From positions 2,046,001 to 2,110,000 of the forward strand of contig NZ_FSRU01000001.1 in NCBI RefSeq assembly GCF_900142845.1: a stretch of DNA of 64,000 nt, given 5' to 3'. Under the pieces are notes generated by a model that worked only from the letters and a program-made list of their open reading frames with translations, was not told the DNA's origin and did not search any database. This DNA is from Paraburkholderia phenazinium (GTDB lineage Bacteria; Pseudomonadota; Gammaproteobacteria; Burkholderiales; Burkholderiaceae). Made by a program: the position numbers and the translations under genes. Shown here piece after piece: positions 34,263 through 52,658 of this stretch (position 1 is the stretch's first letter; each line of letters starts with the position of its first letter).

Positions 34263-36140
34263 TCAGCCCAGATGCTCTGTACTCCGGATTACGGCCTCGG
34301 GAAACAGATTTTTCTCAACGATTGCAGCGCGGGCCGCCGCGACATCGGGAACGAAGACCACGACTGCCAAGTCCTTCACCGCCCGCGAGCAGCACACGTA
34401 AAAGAGGCGACGTGTTCGATCAAGTACGGACTCTTCGTCTGCCGCTATCTTGGCTTCGTCGCTGTCCGAGAGCGGGATGTACCCAAAATACTTTCCATAG
34501 GAATATTGCCGGAAGCCAGCTTCTTCATCGTCGATCACGACCAAAACGCGTTCAAACTGGGCACCTTTCACACCATGATGGGTCGCGAACGGTGATTCCT
34601 CGGTGAAGTAGCGCCGGTAAGCCCAGAGTTCGTCGACACCACACGCTAGGTAGGCCTGAACGTTCTCGAATCCGCTGCTGCCGTCGTCCACCGACTCGGC
34701 AATCAGATGCACGCCAAAGCGGTCGTCGAGGCGCAGCAGCTCGTTATCGCGCACATGCACCAAGACATCTCGGACGGTCGCCCGCGATCCTTCTGCCAAC
34801 AGAGCGACGAGCCCATCGAGCGCTTGCTGCAGCGCTCTCAGAACAGGTGCCGTCGTCTGTCCTCGAAGCCGCTCGGGTTCGAGCTTCGGGCTTTCGCTGC
34901 GCAGGGTCGACATCACGGTGAACTGATCTCCCGCTCGCGCCGCAATGACAAGCGGAAGTATGTGCTGGGCGACTGGGCGGACCGGCCAAGCTGTTCCATC
35001 GTTCAATCCTTCACTCAGACTCATCGGGGCTCGGTCATTGAGCGCCGCATACAGATTAGGGAAGCCGAGCCGGGTGGCCGCCATGCGGTGCACCAGCACA
35101 AGTAGGCGGACATCGCCTTCCCGCACATCGCTTAGCCAGAGGTCGTCCCCGGTTTCGGACGCCAACCACCGCCTGACAGCGGTGAGGCGCGCGCTCCGAT
35201 CCCCGCCCGCCGGTAGGACGAACAGATTAGAGGTGCCCACGACCGGCTGCTGGATGCCATCAACGGTCACCGTCCGACCCCGCACCTGCTCTAGGCCGTC
35301 GCAAGGGACGCGGATCGCATTGATGACCCCAAGCACCGATGTCGGGCAGCGGAAGTTCTCGGGCTTTGTGACTTCCGCCCAGCCGTCGTTCAGCGGGACA
35401 GTACCTGCTCCGCTCATATAGATCTTCTGCATAGGGTCTCCGAAGAAACCAACGCACATATCGGGATGCACTCCCGCGATGTGTCGCAGCGCCTCCACCA
35501 CCTCCGGATTGGTGTCTTGGCTTTCGTCGACGAAAATGTAAGGAAAGCGCTTAGCAACAAGTAGTCTCAACAGCGGATGCGAAGCGACACAGGCAGGGGT
35601 GAGCTTGAGGATATCGTCGTGGCCGAGAATGCCCTCGGTGTAGCTACTGCCATTGCCGTAGACGAACTTCTCGACTCTACTGATCGCACCCAACTCGGCC
35701 TCGAGATCAGCGATCTCCTGTTCGAGGCGCGCCTTCGTTCTCTCCTGCGTCCGGGGCCTGTTGTAGTGTTCGCGTCGCTCCGCGATCTTCTCCTCGATGC
35801 GGGTGACCACCCAGCTCGCGATATTGGTATGGAACGGCCGGATGATCGACCACAAGAAACTGTGGATCGTCGATATGTGGAATAGCGGCGAGACGCCGAC
35901 GTCGGACAAAATTTCACCGACAGCGACTTCGGTATATGTGATGCAGGCAATTTGCTGTCCCGCGCGACGCAGCGCAGTACCGCGAGTCTCGGCCAGGTGC
36001 GCGATAGCCTTGATCAGCGAGGTCGTCTTCCCTGAACCTGCGCCGGCTACCATGACGAACGAGCGCGGCGGCGTCCGATCGAGACAAGCTCGAACGTCTA
36101 GGTCGGCTTGTGTGTCGGGGCTGCCAATCCGGCTCGTCAC
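34263..36140 (-). CDS. gajB: UvrD/PcrA-like superfamily 1 helicase, GajB-like
   Basis: A 625-residue SF1A helicase. Walker A is VAGAGSGKTT (about residues 31-40), motif II VDESQDTNPE, motif III GDPMQKIY, a motif V-like THHGVKGAQFERVLVV and a motif VI-like RLFYVCCSRA. In Gabija, GajB senses DNA ends and activates the GajA nuclease. Its ATG overlaps the stop of the OLD-family gene by 4 bp (36137-36140), so the two are translationally coupled in gajA-gajB order. It is somewhat longer than the Bacillus GajB (about 500 residues); the gain seems to be in the middle of the protein. Assignment is from gene pairing and motifs. Confidence 0.85.
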   Translation of the reverse strand: MTSRIGSPDTQADLDVRACLDRTPPRSFVMVAGAGSGKTTSLIKAIAHLAETRGTALRRAGQQIACITYTEVAVGEILSDVGVSPLFHISTIHSFLWSIIRPFHTNIASWVVTRIEEKIAERREHYNRPRTQERTKARLEQEIADLEAELGAISRVEKFVYGNGSSYTEGILGHDDILKLTPACVASHPLLRLLVAKRFPYIFVDESQDTNPEVVEALRHIAGVHPDMCVGFFGDPMQKIYMSGAGTVPLNDGWAEVTKPENFRCPTSVLGVINAIRVPCDGLEQVRGRTVTVDGIQQPVVGTSNLFVLPAGGDRSARLTAVRRWLASETGDDLWLSDVREGDVRLLVLVHRMAATRLGFPNLYAALNDRAPMSLSEGLNDGTAWPVRPVAQHILPLVIAARAGDQFTVMSTLRSESPKLEPERLRGQTTAPVLRALQQALDGLVALLAEGSRATVRDVLVHVRDNELLRLDDRFGVHLIAESVDDGSSGFENVQAYLACGVDELWAYRRYFTEESPFATHHGVKGAQFERVLVVIDDEEAGFRQYSYGKYFGYIPLSDSDEAKIAADEESVLDRTRRLFYVCCSRAVKDLAVVVFVPDVAAARAAIVEKNLFPEAVIRSTEHLG

Positions 36141-38479
36141 GCCGCCACCTCATCGCCAGCGACGTCCGGTCCGCCCTTGAGTTCAGGGCCGCCTCCCTGC
36201 GGTTGCTCCTCGTCTTCGTTATTGTCCAGCGACGGCGGCGCGATCTCGGTCTCGAGCCAGCGCAGGCCCTCGACGATATAGGTCGGGACCGACCAGTTAC
36301 TCGGATCTTCGGCGAGCAAGGCGAGCGCGAAGTCGGTCTTGCTGAAGCTCTTTGCCTGCACGCGCTTGTGGATACGCTCCGCAAGTGTGGCTAGACCCTT
36401 CTCGCCAGCCTTAGCAATGCGGAGCTGAAGCGGCCTGCGATCCTTGTCCTGACACCATTCCAGATTTTCGAGCGCGAATGCTTCCTCCAGCGTGCGCCCG
36501 GCGAGTACCAGGGTCTCGGCGCCCCAGGTGACATCGATCCGGTACTGATAGGCAACCCGTACCAAAGCATCGTTGTCGTTCGCCCGCGGCTGGATCTTCT
36601 GCTCAGCCGTCGCATCCCACAGGGCGGCGACCGTGTCGCACTTCGGTAGCCATTGACGCAAAGTCTGATTGGACGTCGCCGCGCCCGGATGACCGGCGAT
36701 GCACGCCTTGCCGGGCTTATCCGTGGCCGCAGGTGCATCCTCCTCTTCATCGTCTATGTCCTCAGCGTCCGCGTCGGCGACCAGCGCATTCTCAGCAGCC
36801 AGCTCCCTGTCTTCCAGCTGAGCTTGGTCAGCGACCTCCCCGTCCTTCGCCAGTGGACCGAACACGCTGTCAAGATCGGTGATGATGAGCGTCGTCAGGC
36901 CGAGAAACTCGATCAGCGCCTTGAATCGGTAGCCGAACGCCCCGCCGATCTCGAGCACGGTAAGATAGGTCGACTGCAGTCGCGGCGCGGCATTAGCGAT
37001 CATCTGCGGCAATAGCAGCCGCTCAACATTGCCTTCGACCAGCACGGCGCCGTCGGCGAAAAAGAGATCGCAGTGCGCAAGCTTCAAATAGCGCTCAAGA
37101 AAGCTACGGATGTCCGGGGCGGTGCTGTCGTAGAAAACCGATAGGTTGAGCACATCGGAGGTCGGCACATTCTGCACACGGCTGCGACGAAAATAGCGGA
37201 TCGGCCGGAAGCCTCGTTCGTAAAGAATGTGAGTCGAGTGGGTCGTGACGACGATCTGGTTCGTACAGTGCGTGCGGTCCTCGTCCTTGAGCGCGAGGAT
37301 GCCCATCACTTGGCGGATGAAGGCCTGTTGAAGCTGGGCGTGAAGGTGCGCCTCGGGCTCCTCAATGAAAATCAGGTGGACCGGCGGACGGTTGTCCTCG
37401 ATCGCCAGCCATTGGGCGTGGAGGTCGAGCAGTTCGACGACCATGAAGATAAGGTTCTTGAAGCCGAGGCCGTTATAGTGGTCGGGTAGAGTGGGCGGGT
37501 CGGGATTCCCGTCGTCGGCCCCCAGCGCATAGTGGACGATCGCGCCATCGCGACCGTTCATGATCTTGGCCGGGTCGAGCGCCGAGCGGATCATCATGCG
37601 CGGGTTTGAGAGACCCGGATAACCGAGCTTCGACAAGCTCTTGAGTGTCGGTTCGAACACCCGCTCAAGATGCTCATTGAGCGAGACTTCGGATGCTGCC
37701 AGGGCACGCAACGCCTCGATATCTTCGCCTTTCTGTTCGAGGTTGCGCCCGTAGAAGCGACTGAGTACGTGGGAGAGATCCTCGGCGCGCGAGCTACCGG
37801 GGCCGTCCGAGAGATGGCGCTGCGCGTTCAAGAAGTCGATATGAAGAAGGCCGTTCAAGATCTCACGCCCGCTCCGGTCACGACCGGTGAGAAAGGCCGG
37901 GTCATAGCCATCCTCTGCGACCATGTTCGTGTCGAACCGAGCAGGATCCAGTACAAAATGGCGTAGTTCATATTCGTCGTGCAGCCTGTCGCGGAGGAAC
38001 TCCCGCAGGTTACGTGGCGAGGGGTCGAAGACGGGCGCTTCGTCGTCATCCTTTGCGACCGCATCAAGCACGCGCTGACGCACTTCGACATAGCGGGCCC
38101 GCGTCTCCGCGGGATTTCTGGGCACGTAGGCGACACGCATCCCCACCAGCGTGCCTTCCCAAGCCAGGCTGGGCAGAAGATCGATGACGCGGTGAACATC
38201 GTCCGGACCGATTTCGAGCCAGATGTCGATTTCCATCCTAGGCAGGGACGCTTCCCCCTCACCCTCGCCGAACGCAACGATGTCGGACCAAAGTTCGGCG
38301 CTGAAGTCGTGAATGTTGAAGCGGCCGCCTTCAGTGAACAACTGGAGAGCGTGCCCAACCGATGTCTTACCGCTGTTGTTCGCACCGACAAAAATCGAGA
38401 TGTCGGACGCAAGATCGATTACGACGTTGCGTAGCCGCCTGAAATTGCGGACGACCAGCTTCTTCAAATGCATCCTCAT
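36137..38479 (-). CDS. gajA: OLD-family ATPase/TOPRIM nuclease, class 2, GajA-like with long C-terminus
   Basis: A 780-residue OLD nuclease. The ABC-type ATPase has Walker A GANNSGKTS at residues 32-40 and Walker B FIEEPEAHLHAQLQQ. The TOPRIM domain has ADGAVLVEGNVERLLLP and IITDLDSVF. Class 2 OLD proteins are those next to a UvrD-like helicase, as here. The characterised Bacillus GajA is about 580 residues, so this one carries extra sequence. An acidic linker (AEDIDDEEEDAPAA) near residue 575 is followed by a helical tail of about 190 residues that ends in a low-complexity stretch. The start could be 38479 or 38473. Product degrades DNA upon phage attack by analogy. Confidence 0.87.
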   Translation of the reverse strand: MRMHLKKLVVRNFRRLRNVVIDLASDISIFVGANNSGKTSVGHALQLFTEGGRFNIHDFSAELWSDIVAFGEGEGEASLPRMEIDIWLEIGPDDVHRVIDLLPSLAWEGTLVGMRVAYVPRNPAETRARYVEVRQRVLDAVAKDDDEAPVFDPSPRNLREFLRDRLHDEYELRHFVLDPARFDTNMVAEDGYDPAFLTGRDRSGREILNGLLHIDFLNAQRHLSDGPGSSRAEDLSHVLSRFYGRNLEQKGEDIEALRALAASEVSLNEHLERVFEPTLKSLSKLGYPGLSNPRMMIRSALDPAKIMNGRDGAIVHYALGADDGNPDPPTLPDHYNGLGFKNLIFMVVELLDLHAQWLAIEDNRPPVHLIFIEEPEAHLHAQLQQAFIRQVMGILALKDEDRTHCTNQIVVTTHSTHILYERGFRPIRYFRRSRVQNVPTSDVLNLSVFYDSTAPDIRSFLERYLKLAHCDLFFADGAVLVEGNVERLLLPQMIANAAPRLQSTYLTVLEIGGAFGYRFKALIEFLGLTTLIITDLDSVFGPLAKDGEVADQAQLEDRELAAENALVADADAEDIDDEEEDAPAATDKPGKACIAGHPGAATSNQTLRQWLPKCDTVAALWDATAEQKIQPRANDNDALVRVAYQYRIDVTWGAETLVLAGRTLEEAFALENLEWCQDKDRRPLQLRIAKAGEKGLATLAERIHKRVQAKSFSKTDFALALLAEDPSNWSVPTYIVEGLRWLETEIAPPSLDNNEDEEQPQGGGPELKGGPDVAGDEVAA

Positions 38480-38840: not shown

Positions 38841-41800
38841 TTGGATGCAAAGCGCATTAAAGAGGCTGAGGACGGGATTTCGCCCGCCGGCACGCGAAAT
38901 CAAGATGCAGGATTTATTGAACTTGGTCGAAGATTCGAGGTTTATCGAGACGATGAGCCTGTAGACGAAGCGGCAAGACGGAGCTATGTCGCCGAATTTG
39001 CAGGTAAACAGTATCAGCTTGATTGGCACGCCCTGCTGGCCCATCGGCTCGTTGTTGTTCTCGGCGAGCCGGGCAGCGGCAAATCGGAAGAGTTGCGCGC
39101 CCAACACCGCCGCAACCCCGACAGTTTCATCCTCCGACTGGAGCAACTCGTCACCGAGGATATCGACAAAATCCTGTCGGACGAGGAACTCGACCGTCTG
39201 AAGCGATGGAAAAACTCAGGCGTCCCGGCCCTATTCCTACTGGATGCGGTCGATGAGTCAAAGCTCAAACGAGACGATGACTTCATCGTCGCGCTGGACC
39301 GGCTTAGCAAAGCATTAGGGGCTGCTCGCTATCGGGCGCGCCTGATCGTCAGCTCGAGAATCAGCGAATGGCGCCCACAGACCGACCGCGATGCATTGCG
39401 AGAGCGGTTTGCCGTTCCTAGTGGCGGCGGCACACCAGATTCGGGCAGCAGCGAAATCCTAGTTACAACCATTCTCCCACTTACGGCCGTGCAGGTTCGC
39501 CAGTTTGCAGAAAGCAGAGGGATACGGAATGCACAGCAATTTCTCGACGCCTTAGGCGAGCATAACGCGTGGCCCTTTGCCGGTCGACCACTGGACGTTT
39601 CAAACTTGTACGCCTACTGGCAGGAAAAAGGAACGCTGAGTGGCCTGACCGCATTGACCGACTACATGGTCAAAAAGCTGCTTGCCGAGGTGCCTAACAA
39701 GGAAAAGGGCGACCCGCTAACTTCCGAGCAAGCTAGGTTTGGCGCCGAATACCTGGCTGCTGCCGCCGTGCTATGCCGGAATCTCAAGTTCGAAGTTGCG
39801 GACGACGGTCACGTCGCAGACCAAAAGCGCCTCTCACCTGAACGCATTCTGCCCAGCGACTGGAAGCCAAACGAGAGGCGCGCGTTGCTGGACCGTGCGA
39901 TATTCGACTCTGAAAGTCGAGGGGCTCTATCTTTTCACCATCGGTCACACGTCGAATTTCTTGCCGCCTCCTGGATTGAGCGGCTGATGGAGCACAACTG
40001 TCCGTTCGAGGCACTCCAGGGCATTCTGTTTGTCCAGGAAGACGGTGCGACGACATTGCGCGCATCCCTAGCCCCCGTCGCTGCATGGCTGGTTAGCTCT
40101 GACGTAGCGCCCTGGCGCAAAAGGTTGACGAACCTGCTCGTGGAAACGGCACCGGAGATCCACTTGCAGTGGGGCGACCCAGCGGCGTTGTCACTTGAAC
40201 ATCGCAAGCGTGTTCTTGACGCCATCGTGCGCAAGTACCGCGGACGCGAATATGTCTCCATCGATGTCAGCCTAGAGGCGCTGGCCCGGATTGCAGACGC
40301 CGGCCTTGCAGAAGATATCTCGACCTACCTCACGGACCCGGACGTCTCCGACTCATTGAAGGCCGATTTTCTCATGATGATCATGGAGGGAAGGCTTCCC
40401 GGTTGCATCGACGGTGCGCTTAAGCTCTTCGAAAACCCTCAGAGTGCCGAGTCTCTAAAACGTTATTGCGTCCTTGCCATCCGCGAAGCAGGCACCAGTG
40501 AGCATCGACGACAGTTGGCAATGAGTTGCCAAAAACTGGAGAGCATCGACAATAGAACCCTTGGATATCTGTTTGAGACGCTGTTCCCTTCTGTTCTTAC
40601 GGTGGCAGAGGCCCTGGAATTGCTGCAGAGGGCGACTTTGGTCACTCGCTACGAGATCGAGTTCCTGAACGCTGTTCGAGATCGGTTGACGCAGTCTCTG
40701 GATGGTTCAAGTGCGATTTACTTTCTGCGCGGCTTCGTCGACATGATTGCGAGCGCGCCCATCAGTGTCTCGCGACGTGTATCCGAACAGTATTACTGGG
40801 TGTCCGACCTGATGCCCCTTTGTCTATCGGTAGTCCTGGCACAGCCGAAGTTCCCGGCAGCGGACATCGACACGGTGTTCGAGGCTATATTGCACGTCGA
40901 ACACGACATCATGTTCGATCCCAAGGGCGATGCTGATGTCGAATCACATCGCGAAAAAACGCGAGATGCGCTTGCAAAGAACGCCAAACTACGTCAAGCC
41001 ATTTTTTGGAGGCGGGTCACGCGATACCGCGCATCGCAGAATGGCCGGGAGCCCCCAACACACACTCTCAACCCACATGTCAGTCTGATGCCGTGGGCAC
41101 CTCCCGACATTGCCTGGATGCTAACCGACTCTCTTGAGCGCGCAGATGGCCGTGACCGGAAAATCGCCATGGAAGCGGCGCTCAATATATTCTGGTCGAC
41201 ACGAAACCCGCTCCCTACAACGGTCTTGGAACTCCGACGGGCGCTCGCTCGCGGAGACCTTCGGGCACTGGTACTGAGGCACATTCGCAACCGGCTAATT
41301 GCGCCGATCTGGCTGCGATACGATAAATATGTGCGTAACCGTCTGCTGGCAGCCCATTGGTGGACGATGCGTCACATGGAGATTGTGCGGACAAAGAACG
41401 CGATCAAATCACAGTTTTGGTTATGGACCCATCTGGCGGGAGTAAAGTCAGGAAAATACCCCGTTGCGCTCCGGTACCTAGTTGGACCGATGGAGGACGG
41501 CAGCTCGTCTAAGTACAGTATCTCAGCATGGGACAAGGTTCGCTCCAAGTGGGGTGCCTCACTTACCACTGCTGCTCAGGAAGGATGTGCCACTATCTGG
41601 AAGATATTTTCACCACGGCTGCCACACGAACGACAAGAGAAGAATTCGGTGGACGGTCGAGTCGTGCTCGGTCTGATTGCCCTGCAAACGGCGTGGGAGT
41701 CCGGGGTCATGGGGGTCGATCAACTTAATGGCGCGGATGTGAACCGCGCCGTGAGATATGCCTGCAGCGAACTTAACGGTTTGCCAGACTGGTTCGAAGC

Positions 41801-43172
41801 TTTGGCAAATGCATTTCCCAACGAGGTCGGAGATGCACTGAAACCCGCCATCGATGCCGAATTCGGGTACCCGGCGAACACTCCGCTCGTCCATGAGGTA
41901 CTGGCCAAGCTGTCCGAATCGAAGTCCCCTACTACCGCGGCGGCAAATGCCGTACGTCAATGTCTGTCAAAGCGAGACCCGCTGAATAGCAATGTCCTGA
42001 GGCAGGCCACGACAACACTCCTCCGCACAGGGGTTCCTTTTTACGATGACCTCCTCGCGCTGGCACCTGCCAGAGTACAGTTGTATGCCGTCAGCGATGC
42101 CCACTGGCTTGCATGGATGAGCATATGGCTGCGACTAGACGCCATACCGGCAGTTCAGCGCCTTGAAACCGCCACAAAAGCTTGCAGTTCAGATGACTCT
42201 GATGAGTTAGTGGTTCGCCTTTGCTCAATGCTTGGCGGGAACTACGGCGCGGCGCTGCCCATGGGGGGCTCCTCCTTGCTCGCTCCGTCATCACTGGCTC
42301 TGTTGATTCCCCTCGTTAGCCGTCACGTCCGCAGAGAGGACGATATCGACCGTGCAGGCAAGGGGGCGTATTCCCCACTGCCAAGGGACGATGCTCAAGA
42401 TTTCCGGTCCCGACTTTGGGAAGTACTGCGTACTTCTGATTCCCGCGAAGCCGACACAGTACTAGAAGGATTCCTCAACGATTCCTTACTGTCGGACGAG
42501 CACGATTGGATACTGAGTATGCTGGAGAAAAGAAAAGGCACGCAGGCCGATCCGGCGGCATGGTTTCCAGAGGACGTTCAGGCGTTTGGCATGCATTATC
42601 GGCACAAGCCGCGTTCTAACTATCAGCTTTACCAGCTGGCAACTCGTCTCTTGCTGGATATCAAGGCGAGTGTCGAGATTTCCGAGAACGCCACCGATCG
42701 GCTTCAGGTGCGCAAAGAAGATAAAGAAGTGCACTTCCAAGGATTCCTCAAACGCCAACTCGATCAGCGTTCGCTGCAATGGTTTTCCGTAACGCAGGAA
42801 AGTACTATTGACCTCAATCAGCGGCCAGACTTGCGCGTCGAGATTCCAGACATCAATGCCTTGCCTGTCGAAGTGAAATTGGCGAACCTCGACCATTGGA
42901 CTGCCGAAAAACTACTTGAGCGTCTCGAGGTGCAACTAGTTGGCCAATATCTACGCGCAGCTAGCGTCAACTATGGCGTGTACGTTGTCGGGAACACTGA
43001 ACCTAAGCGTCAATGGCAACGCCCCGGTGATAAACAGCTGATTGGTTTTGCTGAGCTCGTCTCCCTACTTCAGGCAAGGGCCGAGGAGTTGGTCGCCGAG
43101 CGTTCCGAGGCAGTCTACGGACTAAGCGTCATTGGTATCGACTTTTCAGATCCACGAGAACGACGCCCGTAA
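38841..43172 (+). CDS. STAND/NACHT-like NTPase with helical repeats and C-terminal PD-(D/E)XK nuclease
   Basis: A 1443-residue protein. Near the N-terminus is a P-loop NTPase with Walker A GEPGSGKS (residues 75-82), a NACHT-style Walker B LFLLDAVDE (Asp135, Glu139) and a sensor-like LIVSSRISEWR. About 1000 residues of alpha-helical, HEAT-like repeats follow, with no membrane segments. The last 170 residues hold a restriction-nuclease pattern: QRPDLRVEI (Asp1330) and PVEVKL (Glu1344, Lys1346), then a QLVGQYL helix. This is a sensor-repeat-effector design like Avs proteins, but with the nuclease at the C-terminus. The start is TTG 38841 with GAGGGA just upstream; no in-frame ATG is near. It heads a three-gene operon. 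Confidence 0.8.
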   Translation: MDAKRIKEAEDGISPAGTRNQDAGFIELGRRFEVYRDDEPVDEAARRSYVAEFAGKQYQLDWHALLAHRLVVVLGEPGSGKSEELRAQHRRNPDSFILRLEQLVTEDIDKILSDEELDRLKRWKNSGVPALFLLDAVDESKLKRDDDFIVALDRLSKALGAARYRARLIVSSRISEWRPQTDRDALRERFAVPSGGGTPDSGSSEILVTTILPLTAVQVRQFAESRGIRNAQQFLDALGEHNAWPFAGRPLDVSNLYAYWQEKGTLSGLTALTDYMVKKLLAEVPNKEKGDPLTSEQARFGAEYLAAAAVLCRNLKFEVADDGHVADQKRLSPERILPSDWKPNERRALLDRAIFDSESRGALSFHHRSHVEFLAASWIERLMEHNCPFEALQGILFVQEDGATTLRASLAPVAAWLVSSDVAPWRKRLTNLLVETAPEIHLQWGDPAALSLEHRKRVLDAIVRKYRGREYVSIDVSLEALARIADAGLAEDISTYLTDPDVSDSLKADFLMMIMEGRLPGCIDGALKLFENPQSAESLKRYCVLAIREAGTSEHRRQLAMSCQKLESIDNRTLGYLFETLFPSVLTVAEALELLQRATLVTRYEIEFLNAVRDRLTQSLDGSSAIYFLRGFVDMIASAPISVSRRVSEQYYWVSDLMPLCLSVVLAQPKFPAADIDTVFEAILHVEHDIMFDPKGDADVESHREKTRDALAKNAKLRQAIFWRRVTRYRASQNGREPPTHTLNPHVSLMPWAPPDIAWMLTDSLERADGRDRKIAMEAALNIFWSTRNPLPTTVLELRRALARGDLRALVLRHIRNRLIAPIWLRYDKYVRNRLLAAHWWTMRHMEIVRTKNAIKSQFWLWTHLAGVKSGKYPVALRYLVGPMEDGSSSKYSISAWDKVRSKWGASLTTAAQEGCATIWKIFSPRLPHERQEKNSVDGRVVLGLIALQTAWESGVMGVDQLNGADVNRAVRYACSELNGLPDWFEALANAFPNEVGDALKPAIDAEFGYPANTPLVHEVLAKLSESKSPTTAAANAVRQCLSKRDPLNSNVLRQATTTLLRTGVPFYDDLLALAPARVQLYAVSDAHWLAWMSIWLRLDAIPAVQRLETATKACSSDDSDELVVRLCSMLGGNYGAALPMGGSSLLAPSSLALLIPLVSRHVRREDDIDRAGKGAYSPLPRDDAQDFRSRLWEVLRTSDSREADTVLEGFLNDSLLSDEHDWILSMLEKRKGTQADPAAWFPEDVQAFGMHYRHKPRSNYQLYQLATRLLLDIKASVEISENATDRLQVRKEDKEVHFQGFLKRQLDQRSLQWFSVTQESTIDLNQRPDLRVEIPDINALPVEVKLANLDHWTAEKLLERLEVQLVGQYLRAASVNYGVYVVGNTEPKRQWQRPGDKQLIGFAELVSLLQARAEELVAERSEAVYGLSVIGIDFSDPRERRP

Positions 43173-43270
43173 AACGGCGATGCTGATAACCGCCCTGAGC
43201 GCCCTAGTTTCTGCTGACACGGCAGCCGCAGGAAGACAGTAATCGAAGGTTAGACCTTGGAACCCAGACC

Positions 43271-44524
43271 TTGAGAAACAACATACCGACGAAGACTTTC
43301 AAAATCTTCTATTCCTGGCAAAGCGATCGCGAAAACAAGTGCTGCAAAGACTTCATCCGGAAAGCAGCCGATGCCGCAGCCGAGAGGGTAAGCGCACACT
43401 TTGGCGTCCCAATCTCGGTCGAAGCGGATACAGAAGGTGTCGCTGGAACGCCGCCGATCAACGAGACCATACTCCGCAAGATCGATGAGTGCGATATCTT
43501 TCTAGCAGACATGACTTTCGTGGCAGCATCCGGTGTGGGAAAGCTGCTGCCGAATCCGAACGTGATGGGTGAGTACGGCTATGCCCTGAAATCGAAGGGC
43601 CTCGCCCGAATCCTTCTTGCCATGAACACGGCTTTCGGTCCGCCCGAAAATCTGCCGTTCGATTTACATCATCTTCGCCACCCTGCCCGCTATACGCTCG
43701 AGGAAAGCGCACCCGATGGACAGCGCCGTAAAGCGCGCTCAGATTTTTCTGCCATTCTGGAAAGAAACATCTCGATCGCTATCGAGGAGCTTCTGAAAGC
43801 TCCGGAAACGACGCCTTCGACGAGTCGTTGGGGAGAAGCCGAAGAAGCCATCAGCAGATTTTTGCATTCGCGCGTCGCCACGCCCTCGCCAGTTCTCGTG
43901 AAAGATCCCAAACTGGTGGTGTGCGTTATCCCGATAGCGTCCCTCGATCACCCACGTCTCAGTGCTGCCGCGGTCAAAGCGACCCGTCCGCAGTTTCCAC
44001 CGTCAATCGATGCGCGAGTGCAGGATGGTCAGGACGAAAACCAGTGGTGGTCCAGCGACCCGCCTCGGCATGTTGTAAACAAACCGAATCGTGAAGCAAG
44101 ATGGTCCTTTCGTCTAGTGAGACCCGGGTTATTTGAAGTCGCCACGACCATCGGCGAGCGTGTAGGCGACGACCCCGAAATCGTGGTTCTTGGTAGGGAT
44201 ATTGAGCGGCATCTTGTGAACGCGGTCGACCGTGTGGCGACTGTGGCGCATCAACTCGGTCTGCAAGGACCCGCCTTGATCGCAGCCAACCTCGAAGGAA
44301 TTGAGGATGTCGAAATCCACCGGGAACGTCCCGGTGCAGGAGGGCGCCGTATCAGGCGGCCGTCTGCGTCGCTCAGGACTTTCCCAATTCAGAGCCTGAC
44401 TGCGCCAACCGCGGATGCTCTGGCCGATATGATGGAAAGCATGTGGCTCATCGGCGGATGGGACGACGGATCCCCCTTTTTTGCCGACGGCCGTTGGATC
44501 GGCTATGAATCAAACCATACATAA
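43271..44524 (+). CDS. TIR-like nucleotide-binding protein with C-terminal extension
   Basis: A 417-residue protein. The first about 170 residues form a TIR-like fold: KIFYSWQSDRENK, the IDECDIFLADMTFV strand, and PNPNVMGEYGYAL with Glu101 as the likely catalytic or binding glutamate. The remaining 240 residues are not recognised; they contain FEVATTIGERVGDDPEIVVL and a tryptophan-rich end (MWLIGGWDDG). TIR-like proteins of this kind often degrade NAD+ or make nucleotide signals in defence. It starts with TTG 43271, 98 bp after the NTPase stop. The gene is followed 21 bp later by a nuclease gene, so the three form an operon. Confidence 0.75.
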   Translation: MRNNIPTKTFKIFYSWQSDRENKCCKDFIRKAADAAAERVSAHFGVPISVEADTEGVAGTPPINETILRKIDECDIFLADMTFVAASGVGKLLPNPNVMGEYGYALKSKGLARILLAMNTAFGPPENLPFDLHHLRHPARYTLEESAPDGQRRKARSDFSAILERNISIAIEELLKAPETTPSTSRWGEAEEAISRFLHSRVATPSPVLVKDPKLVVCVIPIASLDHPRLSAAAVKATRPQFPPSIDARVQDGQDENQWWSSDPPRHVVNKPNREARWSFRLVRPGLFEVATTIGERVGDDPEIVVLGRDIERHLVNAVDRVATVAHQLGLQGPALIAANLEGIEDVEIHRERPGAGGRRIRRPSASLRTFPIQSLTAPTADALADMMESMWLIGGWDDGSPFFADGRWIGYESNHT

Positions 44525-44545
44525 CCGAAGGGGATATAGAAGCTT

Positions 44546-45535
44546 ATGTCGATCTACAACGACATTTTAGACCAGCAGGGTGGCAACCACAGGGCAGCAG
44601 GCGACCTTCATGAGGTTTTGTGGAGCAGGCTTCTTGCAAAGGAGGATCCGAGATTTCATAACGTGCGGCTCGCGGGTGGCGACGGCGGCGTGGACGGGAT
44701 CATTGTTACGGACCCGGCTTTAGGGAATGTTACCGTTTTCCAAGCAAAGTTTTTCAAAAACATCACTCAGAAAGCAAATCGAGACGCCATCTTAGAATCG
44801 TTTACCCGTGCTCATAATCACGGTTTTACAGTATCGGAATGGGTGCTGCTTGTACCGGTCCCGCTCTCCACCAAGGAAATCGACTGGCTCTCAAGCGGGG
44901 AGCTCCAAAGGCATGCAGGAGCCAGATTAGACATTTCGCGCAAGTGCCGACTCGATCAGTGCGTTGTCAAATATCGCGAGGGCTCCGAGCTAGAGAGGCT
45001 AGCCGAGCGGAACTTGACAGTCACGGCTGACCTTCTGCCGAAATCCGCTAAAGCGCTGCAGAAAATCATTGCTACCGAACGAAGACTCAAGACACGCCTA
45101 CAGCTTGAGATTGTCGATCGCCTGAGAACAATCAACGAAGACATCATTCGACAGCGCAAGATTGAGACGGTCCGGGCGCAGTCCGCCCTAAAAGCACTTC
45201 GAAAAGGCTGGGCCGACCATACCTTGATGTTAGATCAAACGCGGCGAGAAAACGCCGCACCGGGCCTCGTACAGGAATACACGCGCGACTTCATGGAATT
45301 CATCAGACAACGGCTAGATCTTGCATTTATGACGGAAGGCCTGTGCGAAGGCATCAGCGTCAAGTTAAGTGAAATTTTCGCAACGACATTTCACCTCAGC
45401 GCCGCGGCGGGACGGGCACAAATCCCCAATATGAAGGCTGAGAAAGCTACGATGTGGAAGCTACTCGGAACACTGCTGGATCAGTGCCGAGAGTTTGACA
45501 TCGAGCTTGCCAAAGCAGTAGGGAAATTTGTCTAG
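44546..45535 (+). CDS. Restriction-type PD-(D/E)XK protein with helical C-terminus
   Basis: A 329-residue protein. The N-terminal domain has Glu23 in LHEVLWSRLL, GGDGGVDGIIV with Asp50, and TVFQAKFF with Gln66 and Lys68, the E-D-QxK pattern of Mrr-like and other restriction-fold nucleases. The C-terminal 180 residues are helical and may be a coiled coil (IIATERRLKTRLQLEIVDRL). It could cut DNA or serve as a DNA-binding partner of the large NTPase. It is the third gene of the operon, after a 21-bp gap; the ribosome site is AAGGGG. I know of no described system with exactly this gene set. Confidence 0.7.
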   Translation: MSIYNDILDQQGGNHRAAGDLHEVLWSRLLAKEDPRFHNVRLAGGDGGVDGIIVTDPALGNVTVFQAKFFKNITQKANRDAILESFTRAHNHGFTVSEWVLLVPVPLSTKEIDWLSSGELQRHAGARLDISRKCRLDQCVVKYREGSELERLAERNLTVTADLLPKSAKALQKIIATERRLKTRLQLEIVDRLRTINEDIIRQRKIETVRAQSALKALRKGWADHTLMLDQTRRENAAPGLVQEYTRDFMEFIRQRLDLAFMTEGLCEGISVKLSEIFATTFHLSAAAGRAQIPNMKAEKATMWKLLGTLLDQCREFDIELAKAVGKFV

Positions 45536-45606: not shown

Positions 45607-46899
45607 TCAACGGCGATCAGGCGGGAACCCCAGAAGCGGCACTGGTCGATCCCCACCCTGATAGACGCTTATCCGCTCTATCAATTGAGGCAAAAGGGCG
45701 TCGACCTTTTCATTGTCCACATCGTGATGAGCGTGGGGCCGCTGACAGATCACCTCCTTCAACTCAGCAAGCGAAACGATCGAACTCGGATCGCGCAAAT
45801 CGGCCTCGGCGGTATCCAAGGCTTCGCGTGCGAGGTGCCTGGCGACATTGCTACAGTCTTCGCACAGGTCGTAAACAGTGTGCCGGTGCTGAGCCGTAGG
45901 GTCATAAAGTACCTTCTCCTTCACCTCAAATACCCATGGAGTCTTTCCAGATGGACGCACACACTGAAACCGCGATCGCTCACAGCAGCCGCACTGCCAA
46001 TCGGGTCCGACGCGACTCCAGAATTTACCTCTCGTTCCTTCCAGCAACTGAATGTCTTGCGCGGATGGAATAGCATTGCGTGCCTTTTTTGTCTTCTTGA
46101 GGCGCCACGACGCCGAACTCCCCCTCCTGACACTCGTACGATAGAGAAGCGTCTCCGGCACACCATTGGCGCCCAGGCGTCTCGCTAGTTCATCGAGTCC
46201 CGTCCAACTAAAAATTTCTTTGGCTCTTTTCTCAGTTCGAGCTGCGGTTACCTCGGACGCTTGATACCAATGAAGATTGCTAGCCGCCATCTTGGCGACT
46301 CTGCTTACCATAGCCATTCGCATTGCGAAGATGGCACGCCCCTCATCCCAGATTCTCCTGGCGATCGTGCCATCGATAAGATGCGGTCCCACGTTGGGTC
46401 GTGGTTCGACGAACTGCCTGATCTCTGCGGGGGAAAAGGAGAAGTCCTTATGTGTGCCTGCCAAGCGTTTTGCCTGTGCATCCGCATAATTGCAGTCGGA
46501 GCAGATTACCGTGTTGTCATAGGCAGAGAGTCCAAACGCCGTCCTGATCGCGAATTTCTCGGCCAGTTCATCCGCGACTACGACCTGCCTTTTTACCGCT
46601 TCGGCCAAAAACATTTTACGAACAAGGTCCCTCATATGATCGTGGTGCTCATGCAACTGACCCATAAGGAAGTGGTGCTGGTCAAGACGGACAATTTTGG
46701 GCTTTGAGCGTCCGCACGCGGGACACAGCCAATCCGAGCCAGTCATGACCCACCATCGATTGACGTGGATGCCCTTCGCACCAAACTGCTCTTTGAGGCT
46801 CGACATCGTAGACGAGTATTCGCTATCAATTCCGGTCAAACCCCTGTTGCCCAAAAAATCACGTAACTCATCAATGGTCGATATGTGACGGAAGTCCAT
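45607..46899 (-). CDS. HNH-type protein with two zinc-ribbon modules
   Basis: A 430-residue protein. The first module has CPACG (Cys59, Cys62), LDQHHF (His75, His76) and VICSDCNYADA (Cys133, Cys136, Asn137), which is an HNH nuclease with structural zinc. The second, near residue 320, has CGCCERSRFQC and, about 45 residues on, LCEDCSNVA, a further zinc ribbon without the HNH histidines. The HNH domain suggests DNA cleavage. It is convergent with the nuclease operon (71 bp between stops) and seems to be its own unit. A stand-alone restriction or defence effector is likely. Confidence 0.7.
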   Translation of the reverse strand: MDFRHISTIDELRDFLGNRGLTGIDSEYSSTMSSLKEQFGAKGIHVNRWWVMTGSDWLCPACGRSKPKIVRLDQHHFLMGQLHEHHDHMRDLVRKMFLAEAVKRQVVVADELAEKFAIRTAFGLSAYDNTVICSDCNYADAQAKRLAGTHKDFSFSPAEIRQFVEPRPNVGPHLIDGTIARRIWDEGRAIFAMRMAMVSRVAKMAASNLHWYQASEVTAARTEKRAKEIFSWTGLDELARRLGANGVPETLLYRTSVRRGSSASWRLKKTKKARNAIPSAQDIQLLEGTRGKFWSRVGPDWQCGCCERSRFQCVRPSGKTPWVFEVKEKVLYDPTAQHRHTVYDLCEDCSNVARHLAREALDTAEADLRDPSSIVSLAELKEVICQRPHAHHDVDNEKVDALLPQLIERISVYQGGDRPVPLLGFPPDRR

Positions 46900-47089: not shown

Positions 47090-48016
47090 TCAAAATGAAA
47101 CTGGACGAGGGCCTAGCGGCGGCACCGGGATTGGAACGTTGTGAAGCTCCCGAACCAGGTCCTTGTACGCATTTTCTGCATCCGGGCCGTCGGTCAGGTC
47201 CAAATATCTCCGTCCCTGCAGATCGTGGGGGACGAAAGCTTCGCCGACGGAAGATCGGCGCACAACAGGAATGAATTTATTTGTTCCGACGTCATGCATG
47301 ATGTGACTGCTTACGAGCATCTGTTCATAGCCCACACCGCCCTGCCGTTCGTATCCCCTGCGCACATATTGCTCGGTTGAGATAACAAGCACGCGATCAC
47401 TTTCTCGGACGCCCCTGACCATAAACGTGCTCAGGTCCTCACCAAGGCCGAGATGCCACTGATCCAGGACTACGTCGATGCCGTCGCGCCGCAGAGCCGT
47501 CGCCAGTTGCGCGACCCATGTACGATGCTCCGGTGAATCCCAGGAATATGAGATGAAAACGCGCGGAGGTCGCGCTTGCGGCGCGAGTATCGGATTGGAT
47601 GTAATGCGTGCAGCGTGAAGTATTTGGCCGAGATCGACGTTCTTGACTGCCCAATGGGTACGGTTGACCTCCCCCTTGGACCCGATATCCAGTGCATCCA
47701 ACAGGCCCGAAAAAACTTGTGGAGATATTTCCGGGATGGTGGGATCAAGCGCAAACGTCAAGCCGAATTCTGACTGCCTGCTCGTCAGCCCGGTAATCCG
47801 GCCGACGCGGGCGGGAGCCTTAAGATATTTCTCGTACGCAAATAGAGTGGGCAATGACATCAGCGCGGCGAGCGCGCTCTCGTCCGAAATGCTGAAACGC
47901 TGCTTCACACTATCATGCGTATATTCGAAGACCCGGTCGTAACCCATCGTCCACGATGTACCGGTCCAAGCTTCGTCATTGCCGGACATCAGCAAATTGT
48001 AATATTGGTTTTGCAT
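47090..48016 (-). CDS. TIR/SEFIR-domain protein
   Basis: A 308-residue protein. The C-terminal domain from residue 150 reads PPRVFISYSWDSPEHRTWV, then DVVLDQWHLGLGEDLSTFM and GVGYEQMLVSSHIM, with Glu231 as the candidate catalytic glutamate. The FISYSxDSPEH start is typical for SEFIR/TIR domains. The N-terminal 148 residues are of unknown type and may sense the trigger. TIR domains in bacterial defence cleave NAD+ or make signalling nucleotides. It follows the Abi_C-like gene after 24 bp on the same strand, and AGGGATTCTC precedes the ATG, so the two are a likely operon. Confidence 0.78.
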   Translation of the reverse strand: MQNQYYNLLMSGNDEAWTGTSWTMGYDRVFEYTHDSVKQRFSISDESALAALMSLPTLFAYEKYLKAPARVGRITGLTSRQSEFGLTFALDPTIPEISPQVFSGLLDALDIGSKGEVNRTHWAVKNVDLGQILHAARITSNPILAPQARPPRVFISYSWDSPEHRTWVAQLATALRRDGIDVVLDQWHLGLGEDLSTFMVRGVRESDRVLVISTEQYVRRGYERQGGVGYEQMLVSSHIMHDVGTNKFIPVVRRSSVGEAFVPHDLQGRRYLDLTDGPDAENAYKDLVRELHNVPIPVPPLGPRPVSF

Positions 48017-48040: not shown

Positions 48041-48808
48041 TTACAATCCCGAGCCGAGTTTTCGCTTCAGCAGAAACCAGCACATGCCCAGCGCGAGTGA
48101 TCGGCCGAGCCGAGCCATCTGCTCTTCTGAGACTCCGACTGGCCGATGAGACCCGGGGCTGATGAAACCATAGACGCCGGCCAAGCCTTTCTCTTCCTCC
48201 ATACTAATCAGTCCGGCTGTCTTCAGATAGGAGATCACGCCCCCCCATTTTGCTGGGTTGTAGTTCTGGTCCTTCAATGCCTTCAGGCTTTCTGCGATAT
48301 CCACAGCAAGTGTCTCAAGCGCGACGCGGGCGGCGTTGAGAGATGCGTTGTAATTCGGAGGCGTCACACGAAACATTTCTGTCGATTCGTTAATCTTGCG
48401 AATGATCTCTGAAGCACGTGATGCGGCGCAGCTTCCCAACTCCCGCAACAGATCATCGTCGACCGGAGCGGCATCCCCGATTGACGGATCGCTCGCCCGG
48501 ATCTCCCTGTCCTCAACCACGTAGCCATCGAGCACGAGACATTGCACAAGGTCGATCCAGCGTTCTTCGAAGCGGTACCTTGGGCTAACTGCGGACCGCA
48601 GGTTGCCTTGCGTGCGAACAATTTCGTCAAGCAGGACCATCATTGCATTCTGATCGGCGCGGGTCAGCGTATCCGTGAGGCCGCGAAGCAGCAGCGCCGG
48701 ATACAGATCCGAAAAGATACCGGCCTTGCCGAGCAGTACGGTGCAGACCGTCGGCTCCTGAAGGGCCAAAAACTGACACAGCGATAGCCTTGTTCGTTGA
48801 CTAAGCAT
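48041..48808 (-). CDS. Abortive-infection C-terminal-like (Abi_C) protein
   Basis: A 255-residue soluble helical protein. The last about 90 residues read WGGVISYLKTAGLISMEEEK, GLAGVYGFISPGSHRPVG and ARLGRSLALGMCWFLLKRKL, which resembles the Abi_C (Pfam 14355 type) C-terminal domain from memory. The N-terminal half is not recognised. I chose ATG 48808, with GAGGGCG upstream, over the frame start at 48970. It is the first gene of a pair with the TIR protein. In such pairs the Abi_C-like protein may be the sensor or regulator. Confidence 0.6.
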   Translation of the reverse strand: MLSQRTRLSLCQFLALQEPTVCTVLLGKAGIFSDLYPALLLRGLTDTLTRADQNAMMVLLDEIVRTQGNLRSAVSPRYRFEERWIDLVQCLVLDGYVVEDREIRASDPSIGDAAPVDDDLLRELGSCAASRASEIIRKINESTEMFRVTPPNYNASLNAARVALETLAVDIAESLKALKDQNYNPAKWGGVISYLKTAGLISMEEEKGLAGVYGFISPGSHRPVGVSEEQMARLGRSLALGMCWFLLKRKLGSGL

Positions 48809-48988
48809 GACACGCCCTCTTTCTATGATCCACGGTTGCTGCGTCTTCCGGTGTGCGACCCTTGCGCGGAACCGTCGCGGGAACAAGCGAAGGTCGAGGG
48901 AAGCCGGAACAGCGCTCTTAATCTGGACTCGCAGAAGAAAATCAGTAGAAAAGCAGTCCGGCAAACGCACGAAGATAGAAATGAACTG

Positions 48989-50935
48989 CTAGCTCAATAA
49001 CGGCCAGTCTTGCGGGATAAGCTTGACCCCGTTGCGCCATCGCTCACGCACGGCAGTCTGAAATCGTGGGTCATCGCTGAAGTCCGGGTGGTCAGTGATA
49101 ATAATCTGGAAGCGGCCTTTTTCCTCTTCAATCACGTCAAATATCAACTTGTAAAGCGCCTTGACCGCCTTCCGGTCCGTATCGATTTTGCTGGTATCCA
49201 CGTTTCCGCGCTGGACGGCATCGGGAGAGAAGTGTGCCTGCGAAAGCTGATCGAGCAGAAGAAATGAGGGAACGGGACGCTTTCGTTCCGCGAACCACTT
49301 GTGCAGGGCAAGATGCGCAACGATGTGGTAGCCAACGTGGTTTTCTCCGCTACCAATTTCTCGCATCGGGATCGGCCGATTCGGGGTGTCTGCAACAATA
49401 GTCAGCGCCCTCGGGTCGAGGCGCAGCGGACTATCCGAGTATTCGAGGTCGACACGTTCAGCGAAGTCGGAGAGACTGCGGTTGACGTTGGATAGGCAAG
49501 ACTCCAGACGTTCCTGGATGGCGTCGGTACTGACGGCCTCGTAGATCTCCAGTTCCTGCTCTCTAAGCTTTGCAAGCTTGTTGCGTTGCTCACTTACGTC
49601 GGGCATCTCCGGAATGTTTTCGACGTATAGGCTGATACGTCCAACTACCAGGGCCTGACGCGCCTCTGTGTCCGATGCGAGCTGTAGTCGCGTGCTTGAC
49701 CGCTTGATGGAACCAAGTAACTCGCGATTCGTCTCTAGGTCGCGACGGTTCTCTATGAGTTTTTGTTCAATCTCGACAATCGCGGATTCAATGCGCGGCG
49801 TCGCCGAATCCATCGCGCCGCCGCGCTCTCCGATATTATCCTTCGCTGCGCGCAGTTCATCGATTGACGGTGCAGCGGACGCTGCCGGAAGGTCCTGCAG
49901 GCACAATGGGCACGCGTGACCTTGAGCAGAAGGTTCAAAGACGGAAATTGCCTCCAGTCGCGCGACATGCTCGGCGGCTTCTTTTGCGAATCCCCGAGAA
50001 TTGCCTTCAAACGCGCGTGCCCTGTCAATTGCAGCCTGTATGGCGCGTTGTGCCTGCAATAACTCAGTACGTTTCTGTGTCAGTCTATGGAATTCGGCCT
50101 GGTCATCACCTTCGGCAACAGGCGGAGCGATCGGAGAGTTCTGTATTCGTTTCAGGACTTCCACTTTCTCCGCCCACGAAGTGTCATCCGCGATCTCGGT
50201 CAGCCCGACCGATTTAGCCTCTGCCAGCAGGGTGTCAGCACGACTTACGCCGTCGCCGACGATTGCGGATGCTTCGGCCAGCCGCTTTTCGAGTTGCCGG
50301 ATTTCGGCGCGGACCTGTTTCAGCAGTTGCTGGTTCCGGATGTATTCGTCGGTAACGGCTCCAAGAAAGTACGGCAAGGTGTCCTTGATCGCCTGGGCTA
50401 CGAAGCGATCGCTAGCACCATGAAACAGGACACCCTTCTGGCCGACCTCGTTTTGTGACTGGAAGCAAAACGTGAGCGCATGATTGAAGGTCGCGGACAG
50501 CGGCGGACGTGAGTGTCCTGCCGGCGGCTCGTGCAGATAGTCTGTTATCCCCACCCAGGACGCCAGCATCGCCGCCAGCCCGTCGGTGTTCGTGGTCTGC
50601 CGAAGTTCGGAGGCTTGTGGAATATCGAGCGATTGGCCGATCTTGATGAAAACTGCCTCGTTCGATTTGCCGTTACCGACAGGCAGCTTCCGCGCTATAA
50701 ACGCCTGCCCGTGCGTTGTCTGCAACAAAAGACCAAACCATCCGGCGCCCCGCCGGATGATTCCCTCGGGAACATCGAGTGCGGACGAGCCGAAGCAATA
50801 GTCGATTACGCCGAGGATTGCGGATTTTCCCGTGCGCGAGTCGCCGGAGATGATGTTCACCTTTCCGGGCTCCAATGGCAATACCCGGTGACGACCGTCA
50901 TGACTATATGCGACGATCGCTCTTATCTGAATCAT
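48989..50935 (-). CDS. ABC-3C system SMC-like ATPase (DUF3732)
   Basis: A 648-residue SMC/RecN-like ABC ATPase. Walker A is GDSRTGKSA (residues 31-39). Coiled coil lies on both sides of a zinc-hook-like CPLC (Cys342, Cys345). The C-terminal half contains the DUF3732 features REIGSGENHVGYH and PSFLLLDQLSQAHFS. In ABC three-component systems this is the DNA-end-sensing or translocating ATPase that controls an effector. Its ATG overlaps the stop of the middle-component gene by ATGA, so the start is 50935 and not the longer frame to 51022. It is the last gene of a three-gene operon. Confidence 0.85.
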   Translation of the reverse strand: MIQIRAIVAYSHDGRHRVLPLEPGKVNIISGDSRTGKSAILGVIDYCFGSSALDVPEGIIRRGAGWFGLLLQTTHGQAFIARKLPVGNGKSNEAVFIKIGQSLDIPQASELRQTTNTDGLAAMLASWVGITDYLHEPPAGHSRPPLSATFNHALTFCFQSQNEVGQKGVLFHGASDRFVAQAIKDTLPYFLGAVTDEYIRNQQLLKQVRAEIRQLEKRLAEASAIVGDGVSRADTLLAEAKSVGLTEIADDTSWAEKVEVLKRIQNSPIAPPVAEGDDQAEFHRLTQKRTELLQAQRAIQAAIDRARAFEGNSRGFAKEAAEHVARLEAISVFEPSAQGHACPLCLQDLPAASAAPSIDELRAAKDNIGERGGAMDSATPRIESAIVEIEQKLIENRRDLETNRELLGSIKRSSTRLQLASDTEARQALVVGRISLYVENIPEMPDVSEQRNKLAKLREQELEIYEAVSTDAIQERLESCLSNVNRSLSDFAERVDLEYSDSPLRLDPRALTIVADTPNRPIPMREIGSGENHVGYHIVAHLALHKWFAERKRPVPSFLLLDQLSQAHFSPDAVQRGNVDTSKIDTDRKAVKALYKLIFDVIEEEKGRFQIIITDHPDFSDDPRFQTAVRERWRNGVKLIPQDWPLLS

Positions 50936-51447
50936 GGCTGAAGTCCCAGAAGCGCAAGCGTGGTAGCAGATGTTCCGTTCTTTTGTAGCCAGCGGCCTAC
51001 AAACTGGCCCCGGCGGGCGCAATCCTGCACATCAGGACCCGCGTGTTTCACATAGCTCGTCATTTTCTTTTTTGCGCTGTCAATCGGAGCCACGCTCGGC
51101 CCGACAGTAATAAGCGCCCCGTGATGAACGCCAAAAATGATTGCTTCCCTCACGTAGGGTCGCAATATTTCGACTCCCCTTGCGATCGCGGATCGCTCAA
51201 GCGGATTATCCTGAAGCCAGGCGATGAGAGAGGTTCGGATGGTGCTGGGTAGCTGCGAGCGCGTCTGGCCACGAAGCACGAGGCTTGTAGCCACAAACGA
51301 TAGTTCCAGCGGCAAACCGTCTTCGTCTGATTCCGTCGAGAGCGCCTCCTCCCTGTATCCCAGCGCGATGTGCCACAGGACAACCGCACAGAATGCAGGA
51401 TTCAGGAGATTGCGCTGCTCAATAGTTCGCTCGTGCCATGATGTCAT
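50932..51447 (-). CDS. ABC-3C system middle component
   Basis: A 171-residue protein of the three-component-system middle component type. Features are WHERTIEQRNLLNPAFCAVV at the N-terminus, FVATSLVLRGQTRSQLP, SLIAWLQDNPLE and PYVREAIIFGVHHGAL. These proteins are thought to link the ABC ATPase to the effector. It overlaps both neighbours by ATGA (the upstream gene stop at 51444, the ATPase start at 50935). Confidence 0.85.
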   Translation of the reverse strand: MTSWHERTIEQRNLLNPAFCAVVLWHIALGYREEALSTESDEDGLPLELSFVATSLVLRGQTRSQLPSTIRTSLIAWLQDNPLERSAIARGVEILRPYVREAIIFGVHHGALITVGPSVAPIDSAKKKMTSYVKHAGPDVQDCARRGQFVGRWLQKNGTSATTLALLGLQP

Positions 51448-52658
51448 GACGTACTGTCCTCGGCGTGCAGGTCGAGAAGTGCTTCAAGACGCCCTGCAAA
51501 ATCGGGATGCCAGCCGAGCCGCCGCTCGTCGGCAAGCATATGCAGTGACCCGCGACATACCCACGGAACACTGACGCCTTTCTTGATAGGCACCAATCCG
51601 TCTTCCGCCCACTTCAGAATTGCCCGGCCAGCCCGCTTCATCTCTTCTTCGCCCGCGGTCTCTTGCAGTTCATCACAAACCTGGGCGCGGATGAGTTCCC
51701 ATTCGCGAAGCAGCCGCGTTTCGTATTGCTTCAGATCAGTCTCAAAAAGCAGATCATGGCGGGTCCAGAGGGATCTCTGACGGAATGCCTGCAAGTAACT
51801 TGTGATCGCATTATGGATGCGAAACCTGCTGCCACCGACCAGTTCGACCTGCTTGTAGAACGGACGATTAGCAAACTCTGGCAAAGAATCGAGCGCGATC
51901 ATCAGCGCATCGATTTCCTGATCAATAGGTAACGAATCAGGCTTCAACGACTCCTGTATTTCAAGAATCTGCGCATCCATTTCCGCACGGCTGATGCCGT
52001 CATCGGCACTTACGAGTCCGTGGACCACGCGGCTCAGCCACCAGCCCTCAAGCATCTGGACGGCCATTTCATGGTGATGCAGTGAGACGTGGTAAAGCTC
52101 TGACTGCAACTGATCAGTGATTTCGTCCACGTTCGGCTGCGCTGGGACCACGAAGATATTCTCGAGGAGCGCCTTTCTCGCGCCGTCTTCCAAAGCGAGA
52201 TAGGCTTTGAAGATATCGGAAAGCTCTTCGTTCGTTGACGTAGTAGCGGCGTGCTTCAAAAGCTTCGCGGCGGTTTCCACGTTCCGCTTCGTCTGGTCGC
52301 AAGAAAGTGCCTCACATGCCGTTCCTTCCGAGACGGTGGACGTCGTGATCAGGAAATGCGAGACAGCTACCGGGATCTCGCCGGACGAAGAACCGACCAG
52401 CCAGACGCGCAATGTCTTCCAGAGCTCGGCGCTTAGGTCACCAAGGCTCGCGGCGGTATTGAGTGCATGTTTCGTTTGCAACACCGCAACAGAATCACCG
52501 TCGGCGTGAAAACTCACGTCATCGAGTGCTTCAATTTTGACAACGAAGTCTGCAGTCCGGCTTTTCCTGACTGCCCACACTAGCGCAAGCCGAACCTGAT
52601 AGATGTAGCCGAGCATTGATGGCCCGGCGTTGAAAGCACTAACGCTCGTCTGCTTCAT
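51444..52658 (-). CDS. ABC-3C effector with N-terminal PD-(D/E)XK-like domain
   Basis: A 404-residue protein. The N-terminus has MLGYIYQVRLALVWAV, then VVKIEALDDVSF (Glu43, Asp46/47) and VLQTKHA (Gln61, Lys63), the dsDNA-nuclease-like pattern seen in ABC-3C and DUF4297-related effectors. The C-terminal 300 residues are the helical ABC-3C C-terminal domain (KQVELVGGSRFRIHNAITSY, RAILKWAEDGLVPIKKG, SLHMLADERRLGWHPDF). It is the first gene of the operon. I placed the start at ATG 52658, with AGGAG upstream, because the frame to 52886 has no family sequence before it. Confidence 0.8.
   Translation of the reverse strand: MKQTSVSAFNAGPSMLGYIYQVRLALVWAVRKSRTADFVVKIEALDDVSFHADGDSVAVLQTKHALNTAASLGDLSAELWKTLRVWLVGSSSGEIPVAVSHFLITTSTVSEGTACEALSCDQTKRNVETAAKLLKHAATTSTNEELSDIFKAYLALEDGARKALLENIFVVPAQPNVDEITDQLQSELYHVSLHHHEMAVQMLEGWWLSRVVHGLVSADDGISRAEMDAQILEIQESLKPDSLPIDQEIDALMIALDSLPEFANRPFYKQVELVGGSRFRIHNAITSYLQAFRQRSLWTRHDLLFETDLKQYETRLLREWELIRAQVCDELQETAGEEEMKRAGRAILKWAEDGLVPIKKGVSVPWVCRGSLHMLADERRLGWHPDFAGRLEALLDLHAEDSTS

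Follow-up and report, generated by a model that had tools for sequence, protein, structure and literature searches.

Three co-directional genes of Paraburkholderia phenazinium, here called A, B and C, are probably separately evolving defence genes that stand side by side in a defence island near an integrase, with A working alone. The genes lie in the window, the whole stretch of 64,000 nucleotides that was analysed, for which a sequence-only reading had proposed one new three-gene system composed of a STAND NTPase-nuclease, a TIR-like protein and a second nuclease. That system is unsupported, as A matches a named family and the trio was not found together elsewhere; both outcomes that the reading itself had named as speaking against it, a match to a named system and genes that rarely occur together, were largely observed. 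The operon reading is attractive and probably wrong, since nearness inside a defence island does not make a system, and the combination of A, B and C more likely represents three neighbours next to Gabija, bSEFIR and ABC-3C. A is HyoA-like with a score under the curated cut-off of that family, B and C are unnamed, and B is the most interesting remainder of the locus.

The locus and its defence island

ORF calls gave the three co-directional frames, the 1443-residue A and the gaps of 98 bp (A-B) and 21 bp (B-C) that the sequence-only reading had described, and no frame contains an internal stop (Table 1). A simple scan of both gaps detected no terminator-like or promoter-like site, hit numbers not exceeding those in shuffled sequence, from which co-transcription of the three genes is predicted as possible. 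GC and GC3 are similar across A, B and C, and base composition does not separate the genes.

The Gabija-like and ABC-3C neighbours of the earlier reading were confirmed by PADLOC and Pfam, the ABC-3C operon reaching 433 bits for LmuB and 188 bits for LmuA in PADLOC. A bSEFIR gene, encoding about 150 residues ahead of its SEFIR/TIR_2 domain, sits between the gene C side and the ABC-3C operon. The 430-aa protein convergent with gene C gave no match to Pfam, PADLOC, NCBIfam or PHROG profiles and, judging from its Cys/His motifs, perhaps resembles an HNH or treble-clef nuclease.

Table 1 Genes A, B and C and the neighbouring features of the island (positions in the window)
Feature	Position	Strand	Description
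Gabija operon GajB-GajA	34263..38479	-	Divergent from A; PADLOC GajB 759 bits, GajA 841 bits
Gene A	38841..43172	+	1443 aa, TTG start; HyoA-like NACHT/STAND NTPase with predicted C-terminal PD-(D/E)XK domain (helical repeats according to the sequence-only reading)
Gene B	43271..44524	+	417 aa, TTG start; TIR-like, C-terminal domain uncharacterised
Gene C	44546..45535	+	329 aa, ATG start; predicted small Mrr-like PD-(D/E)XK nuclease, C-terminal helices
430-aa protein	45607..46899	-	Convergent with gene C; Cys/His motifs by eye
bSEFIR defence protein	47090..48016	-	PADLOC bSEFIR 222 bits; Pfam TIR_2 and SEFIR
ABC-3C / Lamassu-like operon (DUF3732 ATPase, MC3, CTD7)	48041..52886	-	Pfam DUF3732, CTD7, MC3
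Phage-type integrase	53046..54200	-	Right of the island; Pfam Phage_integrase 75.8 bits

Gene A, a HyoA-like protein

Against the NCBIfam profile NF058534 (HyoA, "NACHT domain-containing antiphage protein"), A scores 1108 bits with profile positions 1-1428 of 1430 aligned, which is less than the 1200 bits that the curated equivalog model requires. Full-length HyoA-like matches at 1070-1146 bits were likewise obtained for six relatives of A (P0127, P0129, P0140, P0147, P0169, P0241), four of them at 1115-1146 and two at 1070-1086. Because A and all six stay under 1200 bits, they seem, by profile score, to form a sister clade just outside the HyoA equivalog; a gene of genome G907 in the order sample reaches 1427 bits. 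Residues G78/G80/K81 and D135/D138/E139, which we take to be the Walker A and Walker B motifs, do not vary across two aligned sets of HyoA-family proteins, one of 8 and one of 21 (the latter at 22-90% identity to A), and the same holds for the C-terminal E1320, D1330, E1344 and K1346, the last three being the nuclease residues that the sequence-only reading had picked out. The TTG start of A is common to its closest relative, P0127 (90% identical), both starts being predicted.

A protein search with A retrieved 201 homologues among 7,991 scored candidates, and A matches 55 of 72,556 plasmid records; the contexts of seven annotated plasmid-borne HyoA-family genes differ. The viral scan gave 3 A loci, to which a narrower scan added at least one weak relative, and two phage records carry a relative of A with 22.5% identity. 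A PDB sequence search with A yielded no useful relative, and PADLOC no match at E <= 0.1. The genome also contains a second, distant HyoA-family gene (C2:1295444-1297396, minus strand, locus L115) with 55.6 bits to HyoA and a frame of 1367 aa, and on a Burkholderia glumae plasmid a HyoA-family gene is apparently interrupted by an ISNCY transposase gene (L155, 5962-11988).

As to trigger, oligomerisation and activity, we infer that A would sense a phage cue, probably via the extended stretch that separates its NTPase from its nuclease domain, upon which its NACHT NTPase would bind ATP and oligomerise, bringing the C-terminal PD-(D/E)XK domains together to cut DNA.

Genes B and C

The TIR-like nature of B and the importance given to Glu101 by the sequence-only reading were borne out, since all 40 aligned sequences retain E101 and a structure model of B (pLDDT 89.9) is TIR-like over residues 9-177, matching the TIR domains of TIR-STING. 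Residues 7-177 dominate the VIA rows for this model. No PADLOC, NCBIfam or Pfam profile matches B (Pfam at E <= 0.1), PHROGs gave it one weak match (19 bits, function unknown), and a PDB sequence search found no useful relative of B. Its TTG start is common to P0006 (81% identical), both starts again being predicted. A protein search returned 194 homologues among 7,997 scored candidates, the plasmid records include 70 matches, and the viral scan 21 loci, with a narrower scan adding one locus from a contig already sampled. B is a widespread, uncharacterised and unnamed TIR-like gene, and may encode a separate TIR-like enzyme, probably an NADase, that would be switched on through its own C-terminal domain.

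For C, the residues Glu23, Asp50, Gln66 and Lys68 that had been read as restriction-fold-like are invariant in 5 sequences, with the D and QxK of the active site conserved. Pfam Mrr_cat scores 18.1 bits on the whole protein and 19.8 bits on its N-terminal part, both under the cut-off of 21, and the N-terminal part of PADLOC LmuA gives a weak 24.6 bits. Foldseek with the C model (md8f70002a57e, pLDDT 85.7) returned mostly helical proteins, none at E <= 0.001, and the VIA rows are confined to the helical part. Cap4, EcoO109I, AF1548 and EndoMS, presumably restriction-fold proteins, appear at E 0.014-0.18. The PDB sequence search gave no useful relative (a single match at E 0.91), PHROGs no match, and the protein search 4 relatives besides C itself among 7,990 scored candidates, two of the relatives having 44% and 39% identity; neither the 72,556 plasmid records nor the viral scan contained one. 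C is a rare, unnamed gene whose product is predicted to be a small nuclease of the Mrr type.

Linkage of A, B and C

Profile searches of 104 B loci (the best 80 of 351 relatives found in the genome collection by a B-alignment scan, 3 from plasmids and 21 viral) detected C in none and an A-family relative in one, weak at 32 bits (L020); tblastn on these loci, 83 and then 21, found neither A nor C. Conversely, profile search found neither B nor C in any of the 43 loci that had been retrieved through a HyoA-family match (L005-L009, L092, L094-L119, L150-L160). Several of these loci represent parts of a single gene or match weakly, L156-L159 apparently come from genomes already in the sample, and those from genome searches carry about 1.5 kb of flank each. 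Twelve of the 43 score above 700 bits on the A5 profile.

Across the 399 genomes of the order samples, in which the best few candidates per genome were scored (up to 5 in some of the searches), matches to the A (HyoA) family were found in 19 genomes, to B in 9, where several matches are partial and weak, and to C in a single genome. Both A and B are present in G000, the genome studied here, and in G907 and G643, where they lie on separate contigs; adjacency of A and B, and the presence of C, are confined to the own genome. The own genome is also the single one with C among 200 genomes of the family, and the single one with B, by a single-sequence query, among 369 genomes of the class. For the B relatives of highest identity (55-81%) and all four relatives of C, linkage was assessed by comparing the longest contigs of listed relatives (119 for A, 120 for B, 4 for C), which have no size in common; this comparison is indirect, because a cluster displays its longest contig only. 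Conserved co-occurrence, which the sequence-only reading had put forward as a check on the three-gene system, was therefore not found in the searchable data. Burkholderia, Paraburkholderia and Caballeronia are among the names borne by close relatives of A, whereas the best B loci come from Caulobacter, Hyphomonadaceae, Phenylobacterium and Rhizobium, which suggests different histories for A and B.

Neighbours of B relatives

Removing near-duplicates reduced the 103 B loci that have a usable ORF to 85. In 13 of these the match spans 388 or more residues of B, a threshold set post hoc with the table already seen. Every ORF was taken from its first start codon, and intergenic distances are therefore rough. 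Within the 13 loci, the next co-directional gene of L002 encodes SduA_C and that of L014 DUF4365-TPR, each scoring over its Pfam cut-off, whereas that of L015 encodes a protein with a sub-threshold NERD match (15.4 bits against a cut-off of 22.1); SduA_C, DUF4365 and NERD are, we assume, PD-(D/E)XK-type domains. PADLOC identifies the L002 partner as a Shedu protein (SduA 402 bits). In L003, L030 and L035 the next gene belongs to one family with an EYQG-QHY motif, read by eye (L003 and L030 aligned). B is followed by an opposite-strand gene in 5 of the 13 (L012, L013, L019, L029, L130), by a 118-aa ORF in L017 and by a transposase in L020.

The EYQG-QHY family, possibly a candidate nuclease from its motif, is not supported by any match in Pfam, NCBIfam, PADLOC or PDB, and when the putative nuclease regions from L088 and L015 were compared with PDB sequences, no convincing match emerged. 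Its members follow a B relative of 552-553 aa in L003, L030, L035, L041 and L088, mostly labelled sphingomonads, and are 540-652 aa long when counted from the first start codon; the annotated L003 protein has 447 aa.

Nine proteins upstream of B relatives comprise a STAND-like protein (L044), MkoC (L047), two integrases, a relaxase, a KfrA-like protein, a ribonucleotide reductase, an AIR carboxylase and one without match. The MkoC gene (PADLOC 937 bits) overlaps the B-type TIR gene (L047, 6250-11299). A Syntrophobacteraceae MAG (L044, 4749-11242) encodes a 1720-aa protein whose STAND and Avs4 matches are weak and without exception under cut-off; its gene has a 4-bp overlap with the B-type TIR gene. 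The weak HyoA-family relative of L020 is found about 3.5 kb away from a B that appears broken. Given L044 and L020, nearness of STAND and TIR genes is not unique to this window. With such varied neighbours, B looks like a mobile stand-alone gene in habit, with a possible, unproven preference for nuclease partners.

Weighing the readings

Three separate genes accord with the full-length HyoA-like match of A and with relatives of B beside SduA as well as MkoC. Against this stand the mere 21 bp between B and C, the common strand and similar GC and GC3 of all three genes, the overlap of STAND-like and TIR genes in L044 and the weak HyoA-family relative near the broken B of L020.

Unlikely, in our estimate, is a two-gene module of B and C with A unrelated, in which the TIR-like B, directly or via a nucleotide signal, would license an interchangeable PD-(D/E)XK nuclease. 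The short B-C distance and the succession of SduA_C, DUF4365-TPR, sub-threshold NERD and EYQG-QHY proteins after full-length B relatives are what such a module would produce; yet the same 13 loci include the opposite-strand genes, the 118-aa ORF and the transposase, Shedu works alone, the EYQG-QHY family is without database support and its annotated L003 member begins 292 bp after B, and none of the four C relatives agrees in longest-contig size with any of the 120 listed B relatives. We likewise consider it improbable that B represents an unnamed, widespread TIR-STING-like family that recurrently teams up with any downstream PD-(D/E)XK nuclease, be it Shedu-like, DUF4365-TPR, NERD-like, of the EYQG-motif family or the Mrr-like gene C, and so would act as a plug-in TIR switch with interchangeable effectors.

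Very improbable is the three-gene system of the sequence-only reading, in which HyoA-like sensor, TIR-like partner and second nuclease would act together: it could draw on the short gaps lacking terminator-like sites, the single strand, the similar composition and the one other STAND-like gene that overlaps a B-type TIR gene, but the combination is absent from all 104 B loci and all 43 HyoA-family loci and restricted to the own genome in the 399-genome samples. We reject it on linkage, as judged by the profile, tblastn and longest-contig searches of the sampled loci and relatives. That B serves A alone, as TIR effector or amplifier of the STAND sensor, with C independent, is extremely unlikely despite the L044 overlap and L020, as an A-family relative occurs in just one B locus, B in no HyoA-family locus, and A already has conserved nuclease residues of its own.

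Comparison with known systems

The earlier statement that the combination could not be matched to any named system is upheld in part: A has a full-length HyoA match, though under the cut-off, B has no match, and C has weak partial ones only. A literature search for HyoA or EruA as defence names found no paper, most subscription papers and preprints lying outside its reach, so that HyoA may be published; the accessible portion of the DefensePredictor text (PMC13092281) contains neither Hyo nor Eru. Narrow searches, and thus weak negatives, likewise found no paper on a TIR plus nuclease pair and no mention of a 'C-terminal nuclease'.

C shares the E...D...QxK residues of Mrr and LmuA-type restriction-fold nucleases, its Mrr_cat and LmuA N-terminal matches being weak. 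For B, the N-terminal TIR fold of TIR-STING (SfSTING) was found in the model; the comparison, dominated by residues 7-177, did not match its C-terminal domain to STING. B has no PADLOC or NCBIfam match, and hence none to a ThsB-type model of Thoeris, although the two may be related at the level of the fold. According to extracts of PMC13174449 on Swarozyc and the DUF4062 TIR-like NADase, TIR-like proteins often neighbour different defence systems, and to that extent B resembles the DUF4062 proteins in neighbour habit; it differs from them in having no Pfam match at E <= 0.1 and therefore none to DUF4062. The B family is a lead in its own right, with relatives beside several defence genes and some full-length ones followed by different, partly only predicted, nucleases.

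EruA (NCBIfam NF058535), a related NACHT antiphage family, scores 176 bits over most of A against a cut-off of 1000. With HyoA, A shares the full-length profile match, a P-loop near the N-terminus and conserved C-terminal PD-(D/E)XK residues, and it differs in score (1108 against 1200 bits); that P-loop and PD-(D/E)XK residues define HyoA is our own reading, NF058534 naming a NACHT domain only. Like AVAST/Avs and bNACHT proteins, A is a STAND/NACHT NTPase with a predicted nuclease effector. In bNACHT and other STAND proteins, however, the effector is N-terminal (extracts of PMC12169576), as it is in AVAST/Avs, and the contrast drawn by the sequence-only reading is a fair one: A is arranged the opposite way, with its P-loop at 78-81 and its nuclease residues at 1320-1346. 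The C-terminal effector, together with no PADLOC Avs match, rules out A as an AVAST protein (Avs1-5), and the HyoA-like clade with its inverted STAND architecture, the predicted nuclease standing at the C-terminus, is the second lead offered by this locus.
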